Below, piece by piece: positions 11,899 to 13,350 of a stretch of DNA of 48,672 nucleotides. Made by a program: the position numbers and the translations under genes. This stretch comes from Chlorobiota bacterium (GTDB lineage: Bacteria; Bacteroidota; Bacteroidia; Bacteroidales; F082), in contig JAUXDH010000004.1 in NCBI GenBank assembly GCA_030618545.1, positions 1-48,672 of the forward strand, read 5' to 3'. The notes below the pieces were generated by a model. The model worked only from the letters and a program-made list of their open reading frames with translations, did no database searches and had not been told where the DNA came from. How positions within the stretch are numbered: position 1 is the first letter of the stretch; each line of letters begins with the position of its first letter.

Positions 11899-11907
11899 TA
11901 CTTTTGC
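11899..11907 (+). promoter_or_regulatory. -7 promoter element upstream of metK leader
   Basis: TACTTTTGC matches TAnnTTTGc; predicts a leader of roughly 160 nt. Confidence 0.5.
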
Positions 11908-11925
11908 CCATCCATTTGAGGAATG

Positions 11926-11987
11926 GTTTTGTGGAAAGATTTGAATGATTGCAACCACATAAAAACAATGCTAAAACAAGATTTAGC
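11926..11987 (+). ncRNA. SAM-II-like riboswitch in metK 5' leader
   Basis: GTGG-AAAGATTTGAATGATTGCAA-CCAC-ATAAAAACAAT-GCTAAAACAAG matches the SAM-II core layout (P1, GATTT...ATTGCAA loop, P1', 11-nt spacer, GCTAAAA), upstream of a SAM synthetase gene. Confidence 0.68.
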
Positions 11988-12075
11988 CTGCCAATCAAAG
12001 CTTTTCTGCAAACAAGTTGATTGTTGACGAAATGTCATACACAATAGATTTTTAACAACAAATAAGAAATACATT

Positions 12076-13350
12076 ATGTCATATTTTTTCACATCCGAAT
12101 CAGTTTCTGAAGGACACCCCGACAAGATTGCCGACCAGATTTCTGATGCTGTACTGGATGAAATGCTCAGGCAGGATCCCAATTCCAAGGTAGCCTGCGA
12201 AACAATGGTTACCACCGGGCTGGCCATGCTTGCCGGTGAGATTAATTCAGATTCCTATGTTGATTTGCAGGATACTGTGAGACGTGTTATCAGAAAGATC
12301 GGTTATACCAAAGCTGAATACCGTTTTGACGCGGATTCCTGTTCGGTATTGTCTGCCTTGCACGAACAGTCATCTGATATCCGTCAGGGAGTTGACAGGC
12401 AGGAAGATGTTGAGCAGGGTGCCGGAGATCAGGGAATGATGTTTGGGTATGCTGTGAATGAAACAGCCAACTACATGCCACTCACAACAGAGTTGTCACA
12501 CGATTTATTGCGAGAGCTGGCTAACATCAGGAGAGAAGGCAAGGTAATGACTTACCTGCGTCCGGATTCAAAATCCCAGGTTACCCTGGAGTATGATGAT
12601 AACCACAACCCGTTGCGTATCGATACCATTGTTGTTTCAACACAACACGATGATTTTGAACCCGACGAAGCAAAAATGCAGGCTGCTATCAAAGCAGATG
12701 TTGAAAAATACCTGATTCCAGCCGTAAAGTCAAAATACACCGGCGATGTTCAGACATTGTTCAACGGGAAATACACACTTCATGTAAATCCAACAGGCAA
12801 ATTTGTAATTGGTGGCCCTCATGGTGATACAGGTTTAACCGGAAGGAAAATTATCGTTGATACCTATGGTGGTCATGGTGCTCACGGAGGAGGCGCCTTC
12901 TCAGGCAAAGATGCTTCAAAAGTGGACCGTTCCGCCGCTTATGCAGCCAGACATATTGCTAAAAACATGGTCGCAGCAGGAGTTGCTGATAGGATGCTCG
13001 TACAGGTAGCCTATGCCATCGGAGTTGCCGAGCCTGTTGGATTCTTTGTGAACACTTATGGAACAGCCCATGTGAAGGATGCATCAGGGACCGTATTGTC
13101 AGATAGCGAAATTGCCCGCAAAGCCAAAACAATGTTTGATTTGCGACCTTATCAGATCGTAAAAAGGTTTGGCTTGAAATATCCAATCTTTGAAGAAACA
13201 GCTTCTTACGGACATTTTGGAAGGAAATCATTTGAGAAAGAAGTAGTGTTGAAGAATAAAAACGGAAGCCCGGAAAAGAAAAAAGTATCGTTCTTCGCCT
13301 GGGAAAAACTTGATGAGGTTAATGAAATAAAAACTGCTTTCGGGCTATAG
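12076..13350 (+). CDS. metK: S-adenosylmethionine synthetase
   Basis: [46 protein letters not shown]. Confidence 0.97.

Follow-up and report, generated by a model that had tools for sequence, protein, structure and literature searches.

Alphaproteobacterial SAM-II riboswitches (RF00521), described for metA and metZ, use a P1 helix and a pseudoknot to turn expression off in the presence of S-adenosylmethionine (SAM), and do so through intrinsic terminators or through sequestration of the Shine-Dalgarno (SD) sequence (PMC1273637, PMC9373788). Terminators are among the SAM-II outputs described to date (PMC1273637; PMC2258182), and one SAM-II that acts by SD sequestration governs an AUG located 74 nt downstream (PMC9373788). 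A related family, RF01726, was defined as "SAM-II long loops" from Bacteroidetes and marine sequences (Weinberg et al. 2010, PMC2864571); members in Bacteroides had already been pointed out in the first SAM-II paper (PMC1273637). In the open-access literature searched, we found no account of an expression platform for RF01726 or for Bacteroidota SAM-II, and an earlier description elsewhere is possible; in a transcriptome paper on B. thetaiotaomicron, the main text reports on TPP riboswitches, and neither metK nor "S-adenosyl-" appears in it. Riboswitch action on genes is little studied in this phylum, which makes little use of SD sequences; Bacteroidetes members lack such sequences and adjust initiation through structure and through adenines that precede the start (PMC6847099).

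Here we describe the metK leader in a 48.7-kb stretch of DNA (the window) from a member of the Bacteroidota, in comparison with leaders from relatives. The locus agrees with published RF01726 in aptamer sequence, fold, and phylum, with metK as the downstream gene in all relatives examined; what the present analysis adds to the family as published (PMC2864571) is an anti-aptamer strand, which covaries with the aptamer and would disrupt it by pairing. While the aptamer class is shared with alphaproteobacterial SAM-II, canonical terminators are rare in the leaders compared here, and their expression platform targets the 5' half of the aptamer.

Identity and distribution of the metK leader aptamer

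A scan of the window with Rfam covariance models yielded RF01726 as the only model above its gathering score (44 bits), with a full-length match on the forward strand at 11925-11984 (68.1 bits, E 7e-13); genome-wide, this copy in the metK leader is the single SAM-II above cut-off. An earlier note on this DNA, whose quoted sequence elements all lie where it had placed them, had proposed a SAM-II-like riboswitch at this position, and the proposal is borne out by this match and by its retention upstream of metK across relatives. RF00521 (SAM_alpha), the SAM-II model that the note had named, reaches 17.1 of the 36 bits needed and thus falls below its cut-off, so that the type is long-loop RF01726. 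Alignment to RF01726 places the two strands of P1 at 11931-11934 (GTGG) and 11955-11958 (CCAC) and, together with the base profile, the start of the pseudoknot 3' strand at 11970-11975 (GCTAAA), which is invariant in the family; TTGCAA lies at 11949-11954. The conserved core GATTTG..TTGCAA..GCTAAA and P1 are kept in the metK leaders of relatives. The leader that holds the aptamer belongs to a SAM/methionine gene, namely metK (S-adenosylmethionine synthetase; 12076-13350, forward strand, AUG at 12076), which is identified by its open reading frame and by the metK homology of the relatives' loci and is predicted to be the regulated gene. Judged by its sequence, the leader contains a genuine SAM-II riboswitch aptamer, which, since RF01726 and its Bacteroides members had been described previously, is of an already known class; we infer that the segment 11925-11984 binds SAM.

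Upstream of the aptamer, a -7 promoter element of the TANNTTTG type (TACTTTTG) at 11899-11906 on the forward strand predicts a transcription start at approximately 11911-11913; no -33 TTG was seen at this promoter, and TTTG elements that resemble the -7 element of the window sit just 5' of P1 in relatives. The predicted transcript begins with a short hairpin (CCATT-TGAGG-AATGG, 11912-11926) that precedes P1, and several relatives carry a different hairpin at the same spot (e.g., CCGTTTTAAAAACGG in L023 and TTCGTTAAAAAACGAA in L037); the hairpin at 11912-11926 could stabilise the mRNA.

Of 149 genomes in the family to which the source genome belongs (hereafter, own family), 129 have an RF01726 match above cut-off, as do 49/61 relatives' genomes and 42/297 genomes sampled across the phylum, and metK lies downstream in every relative locus that could be oriented. 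When metK loci were instead fetched by protein homology, a simple pattern match identified a SAM-II-like core in approximately 47 of 80 leaders. Some genomes of one own-family genus (G131, contig C90, loci L135 and L136; G127) carry at least two SAM-II matches, with three, one of them partial, on one contig of G131.

Covariation between the aptamer and a downstream strand

The own-family leader 3' of the pseudoknot often reads TTTAGCCTGCCAATCA..CTTTCC, and CAATCA..CTTTCC approximates the reverse complement of the aptamer 5' half (GTGGAAAGATTTGATTG). In the window, the corresponding strand (11989-12011, forward strand, hereafter platform), which includes CAATCA, is predicted to form a duplex of -15.0 kcal/mol with the aptamer 5' half at 11929-11953 (z -2.5, p 0.015 versus shuffles). 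The duplex is better than that of 95% of shuffled platforms in 68 of 117 leaders, and minimum-energy folds contain at least 8 aptamer-platform pairs in 128 of 155. With p 0.015 and 8 pairs in its minimum-energy fold, the helix of the window is comparatively moderate, and a few members (L025, L105, and L216) show little aptamer-platform complementarity; neither pseudoknot nor ligand enters into these duplex and fold energies.

As the aptamer is largely invariant, we chose a swap test, in which the energy of each aptamer's duplex with its own platform is compared with the energies obtained when platforms are exchanged between species; selection on the pairing should make the own platform the best partner of each aptamer. 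The test considers duplexes and falls short of a full RNA covariation analysis. With a single leader from each family in the order of the source genome (n=18), a set in which relatedness is limited, own duplexes averaged -15.7 kcal/mol versus -13.2 kcal/mol for swapped ones, a difference reached in 0 of 20,000 permutations; in the remaining sets, relatedness is less limited. Extending the set to more families and genera from the class (n=25) likewise gave 0/20,000, as did the 45 usable loci among the approximately 47 core-bearing ones fetched by metK homology, all from beyond the window's own genus (z -6.2; partial species overlap with the first set is possible); the pooled set (n=70) gave z -8.5. 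A separate statistic, the longest contiguous Watson-Crick run across 34 distinct loop sequences, was matched in 26 of 50,000 permutations. Covariation can be read directly in individual loci, with TGAGTTGA/TCAACTCA in L104, GAGTAG/CTACTC in L065 and L205, TGACTGAT/ATCAGTCA in L093, and ACTGATTGCA/TGCAATCAGT in L192, and Flavobacterium is among the loci that bear the strand. The signal belongs to the 5' half of the aptamer, with a weak signal for the 3' half (z -1.9). The test was null within the family (z -0.6), where it is uninformative because the loops hardly vary. The helix supported by these data, which covaries at the level of both order and class, is incompatible with the aptamer fold, namely with P1 and the binding loop.

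A purine-rich aptamer 5' half pairs to some extent with any pyrimidine-rich leader, and many of the single-sequence p values are only approximately 0.05, as would be expected if the complementarity were incidental. We consider this explanation very improbable, however, as swapping platforms between species costs on average approximately 2.5 kcal/mol despite their similar composition, two differently assembled sets each gave 0/20,000 permutations, and the effect is gone when platforms are reversed or shuffled. Controls in which the aptamer 5' half was set against upstream sequence, the AUG region, or the coding start were likewise null.

Alternative pairings within the leader

The earlier note had proposed a switch by competition, in which the GCTAAA box pairs with TTTAGC (11982-11987), accompanied by a second hairpin between CAATCAA (11992-11998) and TTGATTG (12017-12023). 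The first pairing finds some support, as 28 of 83 own-family leaders, which are related to one another, have TTTAGC no more than 24 nt from GCTAAA, versus 0.56 expected from shuffles, and as the GCTAAA/TTTAGC hairpin is present, along with the 8 aptamer-platform pairs, in the minimum-energy fold of a longer RNA from the window. Outside the family, by contrast, TTTAGC is mostly absent (5 of 78 leaders), and because GCTAAA is invariant, covariation cannot speak for this pairing. The second hairpin exists as sequence but is unsupported as a conserved feature, since the platform did not covary with any sequence 3' of it as far as AUG+14; CAATCA instead covaries with an upstream element, inside the aptamer (TGATTG, 11946-11951), a pairing that the note had missed. 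It is thus unlikely that these two hairpins make up the main switch.

A proposed two-state switch and its output

We propose that metK is under feedback control by a two-state switch, in which a SAM-II long-loop aptamer is opposed by a dedicated anti-aptamer strand; comparison of leader sequences makes this very probable with regard to the architecture, a degree of confidence that does not extend to the output. When SAM is bound, P1 and the pseudoknot would form and 11989-12011 would be left single-stranded, with metK off; when SAM is scarce, 11989-12011 would pair with 11929-11953, which would dismantle P1 and the binding loop, with metK on. In the own family, UUUAGC or U-runs opposite GCUAAA may assist the on state. 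SAM binding and the off polarity are thus inferred parts of the proposal, as is any output. Two leaders (L132 and L160) have no platform, and their metK start codon is next to or within the pseudoknot (GCTAAAAATAATGGG and GCTAAAATGATG), an arrangement that fits a polarity in which SAM turns expression off, apparently via direct occlusion of the start codon.

Intrinsic terminators (i.e., a stem-loop and U-tract before the gene) are rare in the SAM-II leaders (7 of 161, versus 0.9 in shuffles), and that of the window is not among them. The scan is able to detect such terminators in these bacteria, as shown by own-family SAM-I leaders (L233, L235, and L237) that carry textbook examples before genes for sulfur-amino-acid enzymes. 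A different kind of intrinsic terminator would consist of the SAM-bound pseudoknot and a U-run directly after it. Own-family leaders do carry U-runs of 5-8 directly 3' of the pseudoknot (e.g., L010, L039, and L121), with at least 4 U in 60% of them versus 13% elsewhere in the leader and at least 5 U in 42% versus 5%. Outside the family, however, the frequencies for at least 4 U are 28% versus 22%, the window has just UUU at that place, the U-run is just as able to pair with the A-rich strand of the aptamer, and the anti-aptamer strand would emerge too late in transcription to stop termination of this kind, which together make this mechanism improbable.

Translation control ranks next among the outputs after the one favored below, and we regard it as a tentative possibility. 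Under this mechanism, the choice between anti-aptamer helix and free strand just 5' of the A/U-rich initiation region would alter ribosome loading on metK without an SD sequence. It is favored by the position of the platform, which ends a median of 33 nt before the AUG (interquartile range 28-40; 164 leaders), by the dependence of initiation on structure at the start codon in F. johnsoniae (PMC6847099), and by the location of the start codon in L132 and L160, adjacent to or within the pseudoknot. Against it, the predicted accessibility of the region -25 to +15 around the AUG is essentially equal in the two states (0.521 and 0.513), neither platform nor aptamer covaries with the AUG region, and the gap between strand and AUG in the window is 63 nt, with long insertions at this place in other leaders of the same genus. 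An apparent signal between platform and AUG region (z -4.2 and -5.5) was rejected, as overlapping stretches pair with themselves in short leaders and a test without overlap was null. No SD sequence is present in the metK leader. The unchanged predicted accessibility of the AUG is consistent with the earlier suggestion that the output could be something other than SD masking.

We consider the most likely output, at somewhat less than even confidence, to be loss of the transcript through Rho-dependent termination, or through another process that requires single-stranded RNA, at the exposed C-rich, G-poor strand, with RNA decay or termination at the pseudoknot and U-run accounting for what remains beside translation control. 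Rho favors C-rich, G-poor RNA, and Rho-dependent riboswitches are known in Proteobacteria (E. coli mgtA, ribB, and lysC). The C/G ratio of the platform strand is 3.0; because the strand is complementary to a G-rich partner, C-richness is expected in any case, and the ratio is thus indirect evidence for Rho. The likeness to mgtA, ribB, and lysC lies in the proposed logic, in which a C-rich single strand is exposed or hidden depending on the state of the ligand, while the aptamer class differs and the involvement of Rho here is putative. Taken as a whole, it is possible, though we would put it forward only as a tentative proposal, that SAM-II riboswitches of the Bacteroidota use a phylum-wide anti-aptamer platform, which shows a C-rich strand to, or hides it from, Rho or another single-strand-dependent factor, with neither SD masking nor an intrinsic terminator. 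Exposure of this type, if true, would be an output for which no description exists among SAM-II riboswitches.

The anti-aptamer strand, found by comparing approximately 160 relatives, offers a clue to how riboswitches may function where the usual signal for ribosome binding is missing. As a covarying strand whose pairing and the aptamer fold are mutually exclusive, it provides exact targets for mutation in tractable Bacteroidota that have a SAM-II metK leader, and its positions make the choice among translation, Rho, and decay directly testable.

Co-occurrence with SAM-I riboswitches

A 2007 survey reported no species with both SAM-I and SAM-II riboswitches (PMC2258182). Among the source genome and 60 relatives, 33 of 61 carry both above cut-off, as determined by comparing two scans by hand. 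The SAM-I (RF00162) riboswitches of these genomes have ligand, pathway, and bacteria in common with the SAM-II metK leaders, but their fold is unrelated, and several in the own family have textbook terminators whereas nearly all SAM-II leaders have none. With SAM-I on other methionine genes, one cell would split SAM control between two unrelated aptamers. In the source genome, a SAM-I riboswitch (G000:C152:692-806, L229; 70.1 bits) is located before a metH-like gene.
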